NCBI GenBank assembly: GCA_028715225.1
Contig: JAQUSH010000010.1
Span: 1 to 12,443 of the forward strand
Length of the DNA stretch: 12,443 nt
From: Candidatus Aenigmatarchaeota archaeon
GTDB lineage: Archaea > Aenigmatarchaeota > Aenigmatarchaeia > Aenigmatarchaeales > Aenigmatarchaeaceae
Direction: 5' to 3'
Of the stretch, positions 1,684 to 7,360 are shown in pieces (position 1 is the stretch's first letter; each line of letters begins with the position of its first letter). Position numbers and translations under genes: made by a program. The notes beneath the pieces were generated by a model. It had not been told where the DNA came from. It searched no databases and saw nothing but the letters and a program-made list of their open reading frames with translations.

Positions 1684-2390
1684 TTGATCATCTCCAAATA
1701 TTCTTTTTCTCTAAAATGCAGTTTTCCTGGTATAACTATAGCAGAGGGTGTTTCTATCTCTTTTTCAAGCATGTTAGAAACAGAATCATAATAGATTTCT
1801 TTGCCTATTTTTCCAGAGATTATTTTGTCATTTTTCTTAATTAATTTAGCATCTAAAAGAAGCTTTAAAGCGTCTTTCACTTTCATATACAATCCAACTT
1901 CAGCATCCAGATCCAAAAGAAGCAAAGTATGCAAACCAGCTTTTTTGTTAGATTTCAATGCATCTCTGACAGAATCTAATTTATTAGAAAATGGTATCGT
2001 TACGGTACGACCATATTTGTACATCTGCAAACCAAATTCACCTAAAGCTGAAAATACAGAAGAATTGTGGATTATCTTAACTGGTATATTCAGATTTTTA
2101 GCTTCAATAACTAAATCAATATGTGTAGTTGCTGCTAACGGATCGCCTAAAACAAATAAAGCAACATCTTTGTCTTCACAATTCTTAAGAAACTCCTTCT
2201 GATTATCTTCTAAATCTTTTCGTCTTATCTGTTTGATATTATTTCCCACTATTCTTTCTAAACTACGAATATCTCCTTCCCATTTAGATGTATAGGTTTC
2301 AACAAAACACTCGCATTTTTTAGCTATTTCCATGCCTCGCAATGTTATGTCCTTTTCGTCTCCTAAACCCAATCCTATCAAATAAAGCAT
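1680..2390 (-). CDS. dph5: Diphthine synthase (diphthamide biosynthesis methyltransferase)
   Basis: This is the AdoMet-dependent enzyme that methylates the modified histidine of elongation factor 2 during diphthamide synthesis. It is an SAM-binding fold of the tetrapyrrole-methylase type. Diagnostic stretches are the N-terminal MLYLIGLGLGDEKDITLRG, the central FVLGDPLAATTHIDL (about 79-93), and HNSSVFSALGEFGLQMYKYG (about 108-127) followed by RTVTIPF. At 236 residues it is slightly shorter than many archaeal homologues, mostly at the C-terminus. The ATG at 2390 has a TATA-like element about 24 nt upstream (2411-2420), so it is probably leaderless. It is divergent from the trm5-like gene and coupled to the downstream DUF357 gene. 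Confidence 0.93.
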   Translation of the reverse strand: MLYLIGLGLGDEKDITLRGMEIAKKCECFVETYTSKWEGDIRSLERIVGNNIKQIRRKDLEDNQKEFLKNCEDKDVALFVLGDPLAATTHIDLVIEAKNLNIPVKIIHNSSVFSALGEFGLQMYKYGRTVTIPFSNKLDSVRDALKSNKKAGLHTLLLLDLDAEVGLYMKVKDALKLLLDAKLIKKNDKIISGKIGKEIYYDSVSNMLEKEIETPSAIVIPGKLHFREKEYLEMIK

Positions 2391-2420
2391 AATTTAAATG
2401 GAAGTTCAAGTTATAAATAT
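2391..2420. promoter_or_regulatory. Interlocked divergent promoters for dph5 and trm5-like gene
   Basis: Two TATA elements face opposite ways in about 30 bases. AATTTAAA (2391-2398) is centred 27 nt before the ATG at 2422 on plus. On minus, ATATTTATAA (2411-2420) is centred about 25 nt before the dph5 ATG at 2390. Each TATA box therefore lies between the other's TATA and its start codon, and both genes would be leaderless. This spacing also argues that the plus-strand gene starts at 2422, not at the ATG at 2398, which sits on its own TATA box. Confidence 0.6.
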
Positions 2421-2421
2421 T

Positions 2422-3168
2422 ATGGTATATGAGGTAGTTGGTTCTAAAGATAAGGCAGTCGCAATAATAGGATACGGCGTGAAAAATCCTAGAAAATTAG
2501 CAAAAAGAATAATGAAAAAACATAAAAACATCAAATCTGTTCTGCACAAGTGCGGCGAACGAACTGGAACATACAGACTGCATCCTTGCAAACTGATAAT
2601 TGGTGATAAAAACACTGAAGTTATACATAAAGAAAATGGATATTCAATAAAATTAGATCCGCTTAAAGTTTATTTCTCACCGCGAGAGGCAACGGAACGC
2701 GAGCGCATAGCCAAAATGGTAAAATCCGGCGAACGTGTTCTTATTATGTTTTCAGGTGCATCTCCTTATGCATTTGCTATAAAGAAAAAGCATTCTGATG
2801 TTTATGTAACGTGTGTGGAAATTAATCCTTATGCAGTCGGATATGCGAATAAAAGTGTTAAATTAAATAAAATGAACCGGATTAAGAACATATGTGCTGA
2901 TGTTAGGAAGGTTAAGCTTGGAAAATTCGATAGAATAATAATGCCTCTGCCAGAAACAGCTATTAAGTTCTTAGATTCAGCTTATCATTTTGCTAAACCT
3001 GGCGCAACCATCCATGTTTACACATTTAACAACAGCCACAATGCAGCTAATCATGAGATTGCTAATATATGTGAGATGTTTAACATCAAGTGCCAAGTTG
3101 TTGGCGAACAGAAAGTGCTGCCTTATGCTCCTGGTTTGTATAAATTCAGAGTAGATCTGAAAGTTTAA
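2422..3168 (+). CDS. trm5: Trm5-like tRNA (guanine-37 N1) methyltransferase
   Basis: Class I AdoMet methyltransferase of the Met-10+/Trm5 family, expected to make m1G37 in tRNA, which prevents frameshifting and is the first step to wyosine in tRNA-Phe. From the start at 2422 it has 248 residues: an N-terminal alpha/beta D2-type domain, the family signature VYFSPREATER (about 83-93), AdoMet motif I VLIMFSGASPYAF (106-118), EINP (133-136) for the ribose, and the catalytic-region motif DRIIMPLPETA (160-170), of the LP type expected for Trm5, not Taw2. It lacks the extra N-terminal D1 domain of Methanocaldococcus Trm5. Motif I has Ile in place of the common Asp. The alternative ATG at 2398 adds eight residues and is disfavoured by promoter spacing. 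Confidence 0.85.
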   Translation: MVYEVVGSKDKAVAIIGYGVKNPRKLAKRIMKKHKNIKSVLHKCGERTGTYRLHPCKLIIGDKNTEVIHKENGYSIKLDPLKVYFSPREATERERIAKMVKSGERVLIMFSGASPYAFAIKKKHSDVYVTCVEINPYAVGYANKSVKLNKMNRIKNICADVRKVKLGKFDRIIMPLPETAIKFLDSAYHFAKPGATIHVYTFNNSHNAANHEIANICEMFNIKCQVVGEQKVLPYAPGLYKFRVDLKV

Positions 3169-3765: not shown

Positions 3766-3774
3766 AATTTAAAC
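3766..3774 (-). promoter_or_regulatory. TATA box embedded in the end of the taw2-like gene
   Basis: GTTTAAATT on the minus strand is centred 26 nt before the ATG at 3744, consistent with a leaderless mRNA. It shares bases with the taw2-like stop codon region (3769-3771), an example of how compact this DNA is. Confidence 0.55.
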
Positions 3775-4569
3775 CCTAATATCGTAAACGACATGCCATA
3801 TTTTAGGTGCATATGATTTAACTTTTCTAAACTTGACAGAACCATATTTTTCCAATTTCTTCTTGACTTTCAGAATATCTTTTTCAGCTACGTTTTTATG
3901 AAAATGAATTATACAGTGCTTTTTAGCTATTTTTAATGCAGCAGGAAGAAATCGTTCCGTATCATAAATATAACCAATTATGATTCTGTCAGCAATTCCT
4001 TCTAGTGGCGAAGCAAACTTTCGGCAATCTCCTTCAAGTATTTCGATCTTACTTTGAACATGATTAAGGTATGCATTACGTCTCAGATATTCAATTGCTT
4101 TAGGATTGATATCGATAGCATAAACTTTCTTAGCTTTTTCAGCAACATAGATAGCCCAGTAACCGATTCCAGCGAACATGTCTACAATGATCTCGCCTTG
4201 TTTGATTGATTTTAACATCCTTTCACGTTCTGCTTTGTTTCCTTTAGACCACATATTCTCAGATACGTCCAGTAAAAATTGTTTTCCATGCTCTTTATGC
4301 ATAGTTTGCGTTGATCTGCAACCGGCAATAATTTCTATTTTAGGCTTTCTTTTAACACCTTTGATACCTTTATCCAGAACAACAGTGTGAACATATGGTA
4401 ATATTTCAAGAATAGTCTTTCCTATTATTTTTTTGTGTTTTATTAGACTCTTATCAAGCTTCAGAATAAGTATCTTTCCTAAGATATAATAGGTTTTAGG
4501 CAGTTTCTGTAATTCTTTACTTTTTAGCTTATTTTCTAATTTATTCTTCAGTTTATCATAAAATGACAT
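3769..4569 (-). CDS. taw2: Taw2-like wyosine biosynthesis enzyme (tRNA-Phe 7-aminocarboxypropyltransferase)
   Basis: Trm5-superfamily protein in which AdoMet is expected to donate an aminocarboxypropyl group, not methyl, to the tricyclic imG-14 base at position 37 of tRNA-Phe. The Taw2 features that distinguish it from Trm5 are MWSKGNKAERERM (about 106-118) in place of the FSPR motif, and DRIIIGYIYDTERFLPAAL (about 194-212) in place of the LP catalytic motif. AdoMet motif I is VDMFAGIGYWAI (about 129-140), then DINPKAIEYLRRNAYLNHV (153-171) and GDCRKF. I chose the ATG at 4569 (266 residues): it begins MSFYDKLKNKL, a usual family start, and AAGTATAAAG (4588-4597 on minus) lies about 23 nt upstream as a leaderless-type TATA box. 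An ATG at 4620 would add 17 polar residues and overlap a small ORF. Together with Trm5 it implies a wyosine pathway. Confidence 0.82.
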   Translation of the reverse strand: MSFYDKLKNKLENKLKSKELQKLPKTYYILGKILILKLDKSLIKHKKIIGKTILEILPYVHTVVLDKGIKGVKRKPKIEIIAGCRSTQTMHKEHGKQFLLDVSENMWSKGNKAERERMLKSIKQGEIIVDMFAGIGYWAIYVAEKAKKVYAIDINPKAIEYLRRNAYLNHVQSKIEILEGDCRKFASPLEGIADRIIIGYIYDTERFLPAALKIAKKHCIIHFHKNVAEKDILKVKKKLEKYGSVKFRKVKSYAPKIWHVVYDIRV

Positions 4570-4594
4570 TTTAGAATATTGATTATCTTTATAC

Positions 4595-4702
4595 TTATCC
4601 TTTTCTAGCGTGTTCCCCATATCCTTTTACTTCATCGGGTTTCATGACAACATAAAAGTTATCAGCAACTGGTTTATCTTGTTTTACTGTCATAAAAATC
4701 AT
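4595..4702 (-). CDS. Small ORF of 35 residues, coupled to the 39-residue ORF
   Basis: The frame starts at an ATG overlapping the TGA of the upstream 39-residue ORF (ATGA at 4699-4702) and ends just before the taw2-like promoter region. An in-frame ATG at 4693 gives MTVKQDKPVADNFYVVMKPD as the start of a 32-residue version. The C-terminus is charged (DEVKGYGEHARKG). I do not recognise it. The four-base overlap and the position of its stop just ahead of the next promoter favour a real gene. Alternatively, it and the upstream ORF are one gene split by a frameshift. Confidence 0.45.
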   Translation of the reverse strand: MIFMTVKQDKPVADNFYVVMKPDEVKGYGEHARKG

Positions 4703-5849: not shown

Positions 5850-6449
5850 CTAAGATATACTTTCAATTCTTTTTCTTCTTTCTGGATGAAGTAATTTGAT
5901 ATGTTTTCTGAAATTCATAACTTCTTTGTGTGGTACTGTTAAATACCATGTTTTATCACAATTTGGTCCAGTGATTTTAGAATATATGTTTATATCCTTT
6001 AATAATTTTTCCACTTGTTTTAGTCCATTGAGGTTTACACACTTAATTCTTACTACATTATTTGTCAAATCTATAGTACATTCATCATCAAAAAATGCTC
6101 TTAACCAAGCCTTCTTTATTGAATTATTATTATTCAGTATTTCATTCGAAATAAACCATGAACGGCTTTTCCCGCCACCCAAGATACAAATTCTATCATA
6201 AACACGTTTTGATCTACATCTTAGTTCTGTTTTCCATATCCGAGATTTAATACCAAAACTTTCTAGCATATCTTTTTCAAATTCTTTTAGCAAGATATTT
6301 TGAGTATTAGAATATGATATTTGATATCTTTTTCTATCTCGCTTATATTTTCTTCCATGAACTATTTGTAATGACTTTTTCTCAATGTAGGTTCCTATGC
6401 TACCATCACCACAAACATGAGCTGTAATTCTTGCTTCAGATAATTTCAT
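5850..6449 (-). CDS. Free-standing LAGLIDADG homing endonuclease-like protein
   Basis: This 199-residue protein carries two LAGLIDADG-type helices typical of single-chain homing endonucleases. ARITAHVCGDGSIG (about 6-19) has an acidic residue, D15, at the expected metal-binding position; KKAWLRAFFDDECTID (about 112-127) has D121 or D122. After each helix comes the expected beta-rich saddle, including RIKCVNLNGLKQVEKLLKDI, and the end carries LHPERRKRI, also common in this group. Both acidic positions are kept, so it may be active as a DNA endonuclease. The ATG at 6449 has a TATA box (6471-6480) 26 nt upstream, so the gene is probably leaderless. It stands 31 bases downstream of a tRNA gene with three introns, in the same direction, but is not inside any intron. 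A domesticated regulator or inactive remnant is possible. Confidence 0.85.
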   Translation of the reverse strand: MKLSEARITAHVCGDGSIGTYIEKKSLQIVHGRKYKRDRKRYQISYSNTQNILLKEFEKDMLESFGIKSRIWKTELRCRSKRVYDRICILGGGKSRSWFISNEILNNNNSIKKAWLRAFFDDECTIDLTNNVVRIKCVNLNGLKQVEKLLKDINIYSKITGPNCDKTWYLTVPHKEVMNFRKHIKLLHPERRKRIESIS

Positions 6450-6480: not shown

Positions 6481-6494
6481 TAGCGGGAGTCCGA

Positions 6495-6516
6495 TTTTCA
6501 GAAAGTTTATCTTTCA
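6495..6516 (-). other. tRNA intron 3, T-loop, position 59/60 (22 nt)
   Basis: This is a textbook bulge-helix-bulge. The outer helix is the T-stem itself, GTCCG/CGGAC; the central helix is TTCA (6519-6522) with TGAA (6497-6500); bulges are AA^T on both strands (6516-6518 and 6494-6496); and the inner stem is GAAAG (6511-6515) with CTTTC (6501-6505). Cutting after the second bulge base restores the T-loop TTCAAAT. Confidence 0.9.
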
Positions 6517-6546
6517 TTTGAACGGACGACCCCTGGGTTATGAGCC

Positions 6547-6568
6547 ATTCACTCCTAAATTATAGGAT
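6547..6568 (-). other. tRNA intron 2, anticodon stem, position 29/30 (22 nt)
   Basis: The central helix is TCAC (6571-6574, tRNA 24-27) with GTGA (6549-6552). Bulges are TG^A (6568-6570) and AT^G (6546-6548). The inner stem is TCCTA (6563-6567) with TAGGA (6553-6557). Cuts after the second bulge base restore CTGGG, the 5' strand of the anticodon stem, giving the three G:C pairs of an initiator. Confidence 0.87.
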
Positions 6569-6585
6569 CAGTGAGCACTCCAGGC

Positions 6586-6614
6586 TTAGAGGGAAATTGA
6601 AAAACCAATCTCCT
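6586..6614 (-). other. tRNA intron 1, D-loop, position 14/15 (29 nt)
   Basis: In the precursor, GGAG (6617-6620, tRNA 9-12) pairs with CTCT (6588-6591) as a four-base central helix with one G-U pair. Bulges are CA^A (6614-6616) and AA^G (6585-6587), with cuts after the second base. The intron's own stem is GGAGATTG (6606-6613) with CAATTTCC (6592-6599). Cutting there leaves A14 and G15-C-C-T-G-G, a normal archaeal D-loop. The outer helix is weak, so this is a relaxed bulge-helix-bulge. Confidence 0.82.
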
Positions 6615-6650
6615 TGCTCCATCCCGCTGATAAACATTTATACGGCGGAA

Positions 6651-6660
6651 CCTTAAATAG
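6651..6660. promoter_or_regulatory. Shared bidirectional TATA element for tRNA and rnhB
   Basis: CCTTAAATAG on plus reads CTATTTAAGG on minus, a TATA-like element in both directions. Its centre is about 27 nt from the rnhB ATG (6683) and about 28 nt from the tRNA 5' end (6628), the right distances for both. No better box for either gene is visible between 6629 and 6682, though GTATAAATG (6635-6643 on minus) lies too close to the tRNA to serve it. Confidence 0.6.
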
Positions 6661-6682
6661 TTTAGCTTACAAACTGATTTTT

Positions 6683-7360
6683 ATGACAACTATACTTGGC
6701 ATTGATGAAGCTGGACGAGGATCAGTAATTGGACCGCTAGTCATAGGTGGAATATTAATCGACGAAAAAGATGAGAAAAAACTGAAAGAACTTGGGGTTA
6801 AAGATTCAAAAATGCTTTCTTCAAGACAAAGAGAAATGATGTATAAAGAAATCAAAAAAATAGTCAAAGATTATGTTACAATTCATATCTCTGCTAAGGA
6901 AATTGATGACGAGCGCAAGAGAATTAATCTGAATAGAATAGAAGCTGAAAAGATTGCACAGATAATCAAAACACTTAATCCTGATGTAGCTGTCGTCGAC
7001 GCGCCACAGGTATCAACTGATAAATTCAAAAAAATGTTGATGGGAATGGCTAAAAACGGAACTAAGATAATTTCTGAAAATTATGCTGATAAAAACCATG
7101 CTGTGTGCTCAGCAGCATCTATAATTGCTAAAGTTGAACGAGATAAAGAAATTGAAAAGATTAAAATTAAAGTTGGCACTGATTTTGGAGTTGGATATCC
7201 TCACGATGAGCGGACAAGAGCATTTGTTAAATCTGCTCTGAAAGAGAAGAAGTTTTTAGAGCATATAAGACATTCTTGGATTACAGTTGATGATTTGATA
7301 GAAGAGAACGAACAGCAGAAATTGAAAACATTTTTAAACGGCAACAGTAATAATAAATAA
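6683..7360 (+). CDS. rnhB: Ribonuclease HII
   Basis: This endonuclease removes RNA from RNA-DNA hybrids, including single ribonucleotides and primers. It has 225 residues from the ATG at 6683. The active site is complete for type 2 RNase H: D8 and E9 in ILGIDEAGRGSVIGP, D106 in VAVVDAPQ, and D136 in YADKNHAVCSAASIIAKVER. The GYPHDERTRAF segment is also typical. The frame is open upstream to 6614, but that extension would run into the tRNA gene, and the enzyme normally begins just before the first catalytic motif. TATA spacing of 27 nt also places transcription start at 6683 (leaderless). It is the first gene of a long plus-strand operon. Confidence 0.93.
   Translation: MTTILGIDEAGRGSVIGPLVIGGILIDEKDEKKLKELGVKDSKMLSSRQREMMYKEIKKIVKDYVTIHISAKEIDDERKRINLNRIEAEKIAQIIKTLNPDVAVVDAPQVSTDKFKKMLMGMAKNGTKIISENYADKNHAVCSAASIIAKVERDKEIEKIKIKVGTDFGVGYPHDERTRAFVKSALKEKKFLEHIRHSWITVDDLIEENEQQKLKTFLNGNSNNK

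Follow-up and report, generated by a model that had tools for sequence, protein, structure and literature searches.

The 12,443-nt stretch of DNA analysed here (the window) carries an initiator tRNA-Met(CAT) gene split by three short introns, and a LAGLIDADG homing endonuclease gene (HEG) that lies just past its 3′ end. Each intron fits a bulge-helix-bulge (BHB) motif. Orthologues of the tRNA gene occupy a conserved locus, differ in intron content between close relatives, and in some genomes hold or adjoin nuclease genes. We consider it probable that the gene provides the working initiator tRNA of its host and is a recurrent homing target, with its introns as HEG-less passengers or remnants.

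The interrupted initiator tRNA gene and its predicted splicing

The features discussed are listed below, with the basis of each call in parentheses.

6481..6628, minus strand: initiator tRNA-Met(CAT) gene of 148 nt, split by three introns into four exons that total 75 nt
6615..6628, minus strand: exon 1, tRNA positions 1-14 (splice alignment and BHB register)
6586..6614, minus strand: intron 1, 29 nt, D-loop, site 14/15 (splice alignment and BHB register)
6569..6585, minus strand: exon 2, positions 15-29 (splice alignment)
6547..6568, minus strand: intron 2, 22 nt, anticodon stem, site 29/30 (splice alignment and BHB register)
6517..6546, minus strand: exon 3, positions 30-59, including the CAT anticodon (splice alignment)
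6495..6516, minus strand: intron 3, 22 nt, T-loop, site 59/60 (splice alignment and BHB register)
6481..6494, minus strand: exon 4, positions 60-73 (splice alignment)
6651..6659, minus strand: TATTTAAGG, TATA-box-like element, −31 to −23 from the tRNA start (also in congener G006)
6683..7360, plus strand: rnhB (RNase HII), divergent from the tRNA (PF01351, E 1.4e-44 on the 6614-7360 frame)
5850..6449, minus strand: LAGLIDADG homing endonuclease gene, free-standing, encoding 199 aa (co-directional with the tRNA, whose 3′ end is 31 nt away)

An initiator tRNA-Met gene at 6481..6628 had been proposed, with no strand given, in a preliminary description of this DNA. Covariance model R1, built from the mature initiator tRNAs of nine relatives with the window left out, matched exactly this interval on the minus strand over its full length (34.6 bits, E 1.4e-5 with 156,718 bases searched), and this was its single match in the whole window up to E 10. 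The splice-tolerant aligner scored the gene at 40.1, versus a maximum of −9.1 for 200 dinucleotide shuffles and of −13.8 for 45 other tiles of the window. Removal of 29, 22, and 22 nt yields the 75-mer that had been described as fully paired, and it indeed forms 21/21 cloverleaf pairs, with A1-U72, the CAT anticodon, a GGG/CCC anticodon stem, the T-loop TTCAAAT, and A73. The A1-U72 pair is a mark of archaeal initiator tRNAs, and it was found here together with the other features by which these are recognized, three G-C pairs by the anticodon loop and CAT. ARAGORN made zero tRNA calls in the window, and a search with Rfam gathering thresholds gave no match there either, so the forecast that standard finders would miss the gene was borne out for these two. 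Because gene finders can miss it, genome surveys may score the initiator tRNA as missing in such archaea. Archaeal TATA boxes sit near −26; the upstream element TATTTAAGG also occurs in the congener G006, 2 nt further out than in the window. The start of rnhB at 6683 is the first ATG, as placed by reading.

Each splice site has a few equivalent registers, of which the one with the best BHB was chosen. In these registers, all three introns show a four-pair central helix and three-base bulges with the cut after the second bulge base, the geometry claimed beforehand; none lies at 37/38, also as claimed, the sites being 14/15, 29/30, and 59/60. Intron 1 has the central helix GGAG/CTCT, one pair of which is G-T, bulges CA^A and AA^G, an inner helix counted as 9 pairs, and no outer helix. 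The central helix of intron 2 is TCAC/GTGA, with bulges TG^A and AT^G, an inner helix of 5, and an outer helix of 2 bp, and that of intron 3 is TTCA/TGAA, with bulges AA^T and AA^T, an inner helix of 5, and an outer helix of 5 bp, which is the T-stem. A scan of the pre-tRNA over every 5′ site and every length of 10 to 59 nt gave 5,374 combinations, only 6 of which combined 4/4 central pairs (Watson-Crick in at least 3) and an inner helix of at least 4 bp; three of those six are the introns of the window.

The bin to which the window belongs, as contig C12, comprises 671 kb in 104 contigs (86.7% complete, 5.45% contamination) and mixes two related strains, the syntenic contigs C66 (L063) and C67 (L064) being 79-84% identical. 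Named Aenigmatarchaeota contigs encode the nearest relatives of the window's rnhB protein (68% and 62%), by which we assigned the host to this DPANN phylum. The bin encodes RtcB (E 1.3e-140) and an alpha-type splicing endonuclease, EndA, of 178 aa, one for each of the two mixed strains. Among solved structures, the best match to EndA is 3iey_A (its partner chain bears the name NEQ261, N. equitans), ahead of chains such as 1a79_A. In pairwise alignments, the stretch from the catalytic Tyr to the catalytic His holds extra residues, as in the N. equitans and ARMAN chains, and no insertion was seen at the ARMAN loop, as placed by reading. Broad EndA specificity has been tied to lineage-specific loops, and relaxed BHB motifs are substrates of some splicing enzymes (PMC12397907, in part). 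A splicing endonuclease of broad specificity had been expected for this host, and the only EndA seen, with no ARMAN-loop insertion in these alignments and no second subunit found, does not bear this out. As to which endonuclease type the genome encodes, a point raised in the preliminary description, the 86.7%-complete bin shows an alpha-type chain and no second EndA subunit type; one may sit in the missing 13%. With the strict 3-4-3 geometry of the introns, a canonical enzyme could be enough, at least for 59/60.

Intron number, sites, and turnover in orthologues

A survey of initiator tRNA genes across Aenigmatarchaeota covered 156 genomes with one gene per genome, and is biased to genes findable by covariance model or by an intact 5′ part. 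At least 96 genes were placed at an aligner score of at least 28, of which 89 are clean, the seven unclear genomes (G019, G047, G053, G069, G085, G090, and G108) being dropped. No intron was seen in 19 clean genes, one in 32, two in 29, three in 7, and five in 2. Interrupted genes thus make up 70/89, and at least three introns occur in 9/89, so that the rarity of triple-intron tRNAs outside Thermoproteales, as stated in the preliminary description, does not hold for this gene in Aenigmatarchaeota. The 121 introns of the clean genes are distributed over 17 positions, most commonly 37/38 (32 introns), 59/60 (20), 29/30 (18), and 20a/21 (16). Their length runs from 12 to 450 nt with a median of 30, and only 6/121 exceed 100 nt.

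In the register adopted for each, 64/121 introns have a perfect central helix, this register being the best among those yielding the same mature sequence (≤1 mismatch in the control set), a choice that favours BHB match. In the register control, 4/4 pairs were formed by 21/1,027 single shifted registers versus 40/85 introns of the same set. Introns at 4/5 are too close to the gene end for the BHB test. The most interrupted genes are those of G042 (L196:1368-1522), whose 155 nt include five introns of 12-20 nt, and of G076 (L144:165-832), with five introns including one of 450 nt; both spliced tRNAs form 21/21 pairs. Acceptor-stem introns, at 4/5 or 6/7, were noted in five genomes (L022, L102, L113, L121, and L144), where any BHB would require the 5′ leader.

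The initiator tRNA adjoins rnhB in many genomes of Aenigmatarchaeota, and rnhB therefore served as the mark of the orthologous locus. In Pacearchaeota and Woesearchaeota records, the two genes were likewise found on one contig. At this locus, the congener G006 has a mature tRNA that equals that of the window but for 2/75 bases, a single compensated pair changed from C-G to T-A at positions 53 and 65. Its two introns lie at sites other than those of the window, with none in common and wholly different sequences. A single compensated pair in the exons beside wholly different introns points to constraint on the exons. Within genus g43, G055 has two introns plus an HEG of the window's family, G056 has none, and G057 has two at other sites. 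Presence/absence or differing intron sites were also found within g14, g27, g63, g68, g96, and g104, and sites common to the members within g57 and g70. Presence and absence at one site among close relatives, by which a mobile intron is recognized, is therefore seen in the congener and same-genus comparisons. These data suggest that the initiator gene has been invaded repeatedly by introns in related archaea.

Nuclease genes inside and beside initiator tRNA genes

The introns of the window (29, 22, and 22 nt) have no endonuclease gene inside; its HEG stands 31 nt outside the tRNA gene. The preliminary description had mentioned neither this HEG nor the intron turnover among close relatives. The encoded protein matches PF14528 (LAGLIDADG_3) with an E of 8.4e-12 and 45.6 bits against a cut-off of 22.5. 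Its AlphaFold model (mean pLDDT 95.9) has its best fold match in I-DmoI (E 3e-10, TM 0.64/0.72, rmsd 4.9), an enzyme that comes from an archaeal rRNA intron. The family, here family B, counts 48 proteins in the search, itself included, 39 of which were used as homologues in the structure prediction, and D15 and D121-D122-E123, in two motifs, are invariant in the 39 aligned proteins. Its nearest relative in the phylum (52%) is encoded in G055, a genome of a different taxonomic family in the same class, where it follows the initiator tRNA in the same orientation after 56 nt. The initiator tRNA of G055 has introns at the window's sites 14/15 and 29/30, a combination present in only 3/89 genomes, the third being G001 (13/14 counted with 14/15). 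At these common sites, the introns of the window and of G055 look unrelated in sequence, by eye, and the 14/15 intron of G055 has 3/4 central pairs.

Family B HEGs also lie close to tRNAs at large. A tRNA was present within 200 nt, a limit chosen after data inspection, in 7/20 family B loci (five by Rfam, two initiators by the aligner) versus 0/20 controls (p 0.008; five Rfam cases alone, p 0.047), one control tRNA missing the limit by about 5 nt. The controls were 14 rnhB loci picked for having no adjoining initiator plus six EndA loci, and an ARAGORN tRNA-SeC call near the HEG of G058 was left out of the count. Relatives of the window HEG were noted near other tRNAs, 5S rRNA, or LSU rRNA in L165, L166, L168, L159, L173, L160, L163, and L169, and some of the tRNAs near them look intron-bearing (L166, 173 nt; L173, 117 nt).

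Other LAGLIDADG genes sit inside initiator introns. The 359-nt intron at 20a/21 of G006 consists almost wholly of a LAGLIDADG_1 frame that runs without a stop from exon 1 until exon 2 ends. The 353-nt intron at the same site in G134, with 2/4 central pairs in its chosen register, encodes a 47% relative of the G006 protein that scores 21.9 in Pfam versus a cut-off of 23.1. An ORF that is LAGLIDADG-like, below the Pfam cut-off, occupies the 450-nt 37/38 intron of G076. Two further relatives of the G006 intron HEG (family A), at 61% in G036 and 58% in G046, are docked beside the 3′ end of the tRNA in the opposite orientation, with matched parts beginning 11 and 6 nt past it, respectively, and both of these tRNAs carry a small 20a/21 intron. 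Weaker relatives lie in or near rRNA genes in 5/20 loci. For the link between HEG family and intron site, which was seen post hoc in four flank-docked cases, chance was put at 0.024 for family A and 0.0008 for family B. HEGs accompany 9/70 interrupted initiator genes by count. The flank survey comprised 60 entries with 700 nt of 3′ flank, a few named records among them, and its queries were the families found; G081 gave two matches in it. Beside its intron HEG, G006 (L065:1517-1984 and 2039-3067) has a 342-aa gene between the tRNA and rnhB that looks LAGLIDADG-like by eye and in which Pfam detects an HTH_5 domain only; the Woesearchaeota contig L007 carries a strong homologue (E 2.5e-86) 148 nt beyond its initiator tRNA.

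A second type of nuclease was found at 37/38. In G003 (L177:254-612), the 284-nt intron at this site encodes an intact 89-aa protein with a modest-strength resemblance to VRR-NUC nucleases, and G065 (L215:196-554) has a broken version in an intron of equal length and place. The family has 45 members in the protein search, itself counted (41/45 homologues were used for the structure prediction), with D and K invariant and E nearly so, in a D...ExK arrangement. In 7/45 members, the N-terminus is the translated exon of an initiator tRNA (such as MGQPGVPVGLI), and in P0001, the query protein, the exon is read in another frame; among the 48 proteins of the window HEG family, such a start occurs in 0. 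From these N-termini, the seven genes most likely lie within initiator 37/38 introns.

We interpret these results as follows. We infer that the gene is transcribed and its RNA spliced, with the archaeal tRNA splicing endonuclease cutting the transcript at its three BHB motifs and RtcB joining the exons. Because EndA and RtcB would remove them, BHB introns should do little harm. The initiator gene would be a preferred target of intron homing in Aenigmatarchaeota, its sequence being highly conserved and its loss impossible. Nucleases aimed at this conserved sequence would break intron-less alleles, and repair from an intron-bearing copy would insert the intron and destroy the target, bringing the nuclease gene along if it lies in the intron or flank. 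The nuclease would thus ride within the intron or beside the tRNA and, once it is lost, a mini-intron would remain. The window would represent the docked stage, with three HEG-less introns and an HEG 31 nt away, and its LAGLIDADG gene likely drives one or two of the introns, at 14/15 and/or 29/30. Points against this interpretation include the missing outer helix of intron 1, an EndA with no positive mark of broad specificity, the small number of HEG-bearing genes, the four post hoc cases behind the link of HEG family to intron site, and the unrelated look of the introns at the sites common to the window and G055. Against an invasion specific to the initiator, two tRNA-like stretches of the bin, on C31 and C2, look multiply interrupted by eye.

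A functional tRNA is also the premise of the strongest alternative, in which introns move by transposition of small BHB elements or by reverse splicing, as has been proposed for Thermoproteales, and the nearby nucleases are coincidental guests of tRNA 3′ ends. The small size of most introns (median 30 nt, only 6/121 above 100 nt) fits this explanation, as do the location of window-family HEGs near other tRNAs, 5S or LSU rRNA, the interrupted look of other tRNAs in the bin, and the large-scale transposition of tRNA introns in Thermoproteales (PMC4033280, in part). However, three orthologues hold a LAGLIDADG-type ORF and two a VRR-NUC-like ORF (one broken) within an intron, and two flank-docked HEGs of family A and two of family B are each paired with common intron sites. 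We judge the alternative possible but on the unlikely side.

Beyond the window, we formulated a wider proposition, that the DPANN initiator gene is a homing hub in which BHB introns carry at least two unrelated HEG folds, docked HEGs mobilise HEG-less mini-introns in trans, and the VRR-NUC family is the archaeal counterpart of I-Ssp6803I at the same spot of the same tRNA. The folds in question are LAGLIDADG in G006, G134, and G076 and VRR-NUC-like PD-(D/E)XK in G003 and, broken, in G065. We regard this proposition as evenly poised between right and wrong. The group I intron of cyanobacterial tRNA-fMet encodes the PD-(D/E)XK enzyme I-Ssp6803I (PMC1995217, in part; Bonocora and Shub 2001, cited there), and the likeness to G003 is that the anticodon region of an initiator is invaded by a PD-(D/E)XK-carrying intron. 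The cyanobacterial intron is a group I ribozyme, in contrast to the BHB intron here, and neither the two sequence matches of the VRR-NUC-like protein nor its 50 listed fold matches include I-Ssp6803I. Phage collaborative homing, in which a free-standing HEG and a HEG-less intron are associated with one target site, is the nearest precedent for a docked HEG beside HEG-less introns (PMC3984707, in part). That system concerns group I introns in phage genes, with cleavage at the intron site demonstrated, whereas in the present case such cleavage is a prediction.

Thermoproteales (PMC4033280, in part) and Asgard archaea (PMC11291895, in part) likewise have tRNAs with several short BHB introns each, many of them at non-canonical sites. 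For the multiple-intron tRNAs of Thermoproteales (Sugahara et al. 2008, as cited in PMC4033280), three introns are given as the most in PMC4033280 (in part), whereas the initiator orthologues here reach five, with nuclease ORFs inside or beside some. In the Asgard genomes of PMC11291895 (in part), 92-95% of the tRNA genes are interrupted, versus 9/28 of the other tRNAs in the present bin (ARAGORN, which detects anticodon-loop introns only). The combination of BHB introns with LAGLIDADG proteins recalls the HEG-encoding BHB introns of archaeal rRNA (I-DmoI type; PMC4496867, in part), and the predicted fold of the window HEG fits I-DmoI; unlike in these, the host gene is a tRNA and the window HEG lies in its 3′ flank, outside the introns. 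In the titles and abstract beginnings of open-access literature, we found nothing among the matches listed on homing endonucleases inside archaeal tRNA introns or on initiator tRNAs of Aenigmatarchaeota. BHB introns and the initiator tRNA are known; the initiator as a putative homing hub, with HEGs beside or within tRNA introns, did not turn up among these matches. The observations bear on the origin of archaeal tRNA introns and on why some lineages accumulate them: a single essential gene at a syntenic locus displays intron presence, absence, and change of site within genera, with endonuclease genes inside and just outside. With such turnover and nuclease genes at one gene, homing can be put to a direct test, using small proteins, as an origin of tRNA introns.

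Other tRNAs of the host bin

We looked for another initiator tRNA in the bin, as the preliminary description had recommended, and saw none. On the stretches examined with the splice aligner, the best score was 10.3, and neither ARAGORN nor Rfam yielded one in the 86.7%-complete bin; the intron-tolerant search covered part of the bin, and multi-intron genes can escape covariance-model searches. ARAGORN names just one further CAT tRNA, of the elongator type with one anticodon-loop intron. That the gene of the window is a decaying or non-functional copy, with the real initiator in the missing part of the genome, is very improbable. Incompleteness and mixture of the bin (5.45% contamination; C66 and C67 79-84% identical) leave room for such a second gene, and no other initiator was seen among the bin tRNAs. 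Decay is nevertheless at odds with 21/21 pairs, the initiator identity bases, the compensated change relative to G006, and the conserved TATA-like element upstream, and orthologues are interrupted in 70/89 genomes with one gene counted per genome. An assembly or alignment artefact, with gaps by chance and no tRNA present, might be imagined for a short contig from an uncultured MAG, and its likelihood is practically nil: it was rejected on the shuffles (40.1 versus a 200-shuffle maximum of −9.1) and syntenic orthologues, and the model match has exact ends with a BHB at all three junctions.

Introns were called in 9/28 other tRNAs of the bin by ARAGORN, and one Rfam tRNA match in the bin (L062) has no ARAGORN call. 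Two stretches, L062 (C31:4957-5040) and L237 (C2:4980-5037), appear tRNA-Gln-like by eye with several introns apparent; ARAGORN made no call in the former and a doubtful tRNA-Thr call in the latter. Near the initiator tRNA, the window also contains two TRM5/TYW2-type methyltransferase genes close together, at 2398-3168 and 3769-4620. The strain contigs C66 and C67 each carry topo VI genes and an archaemetzincin-like gene (both by eye) as well as EndA, and in the gap before the archaemetzincin-like gene they have differing LAGLIDADG-like genes, the one in C67 recognized by eye only.
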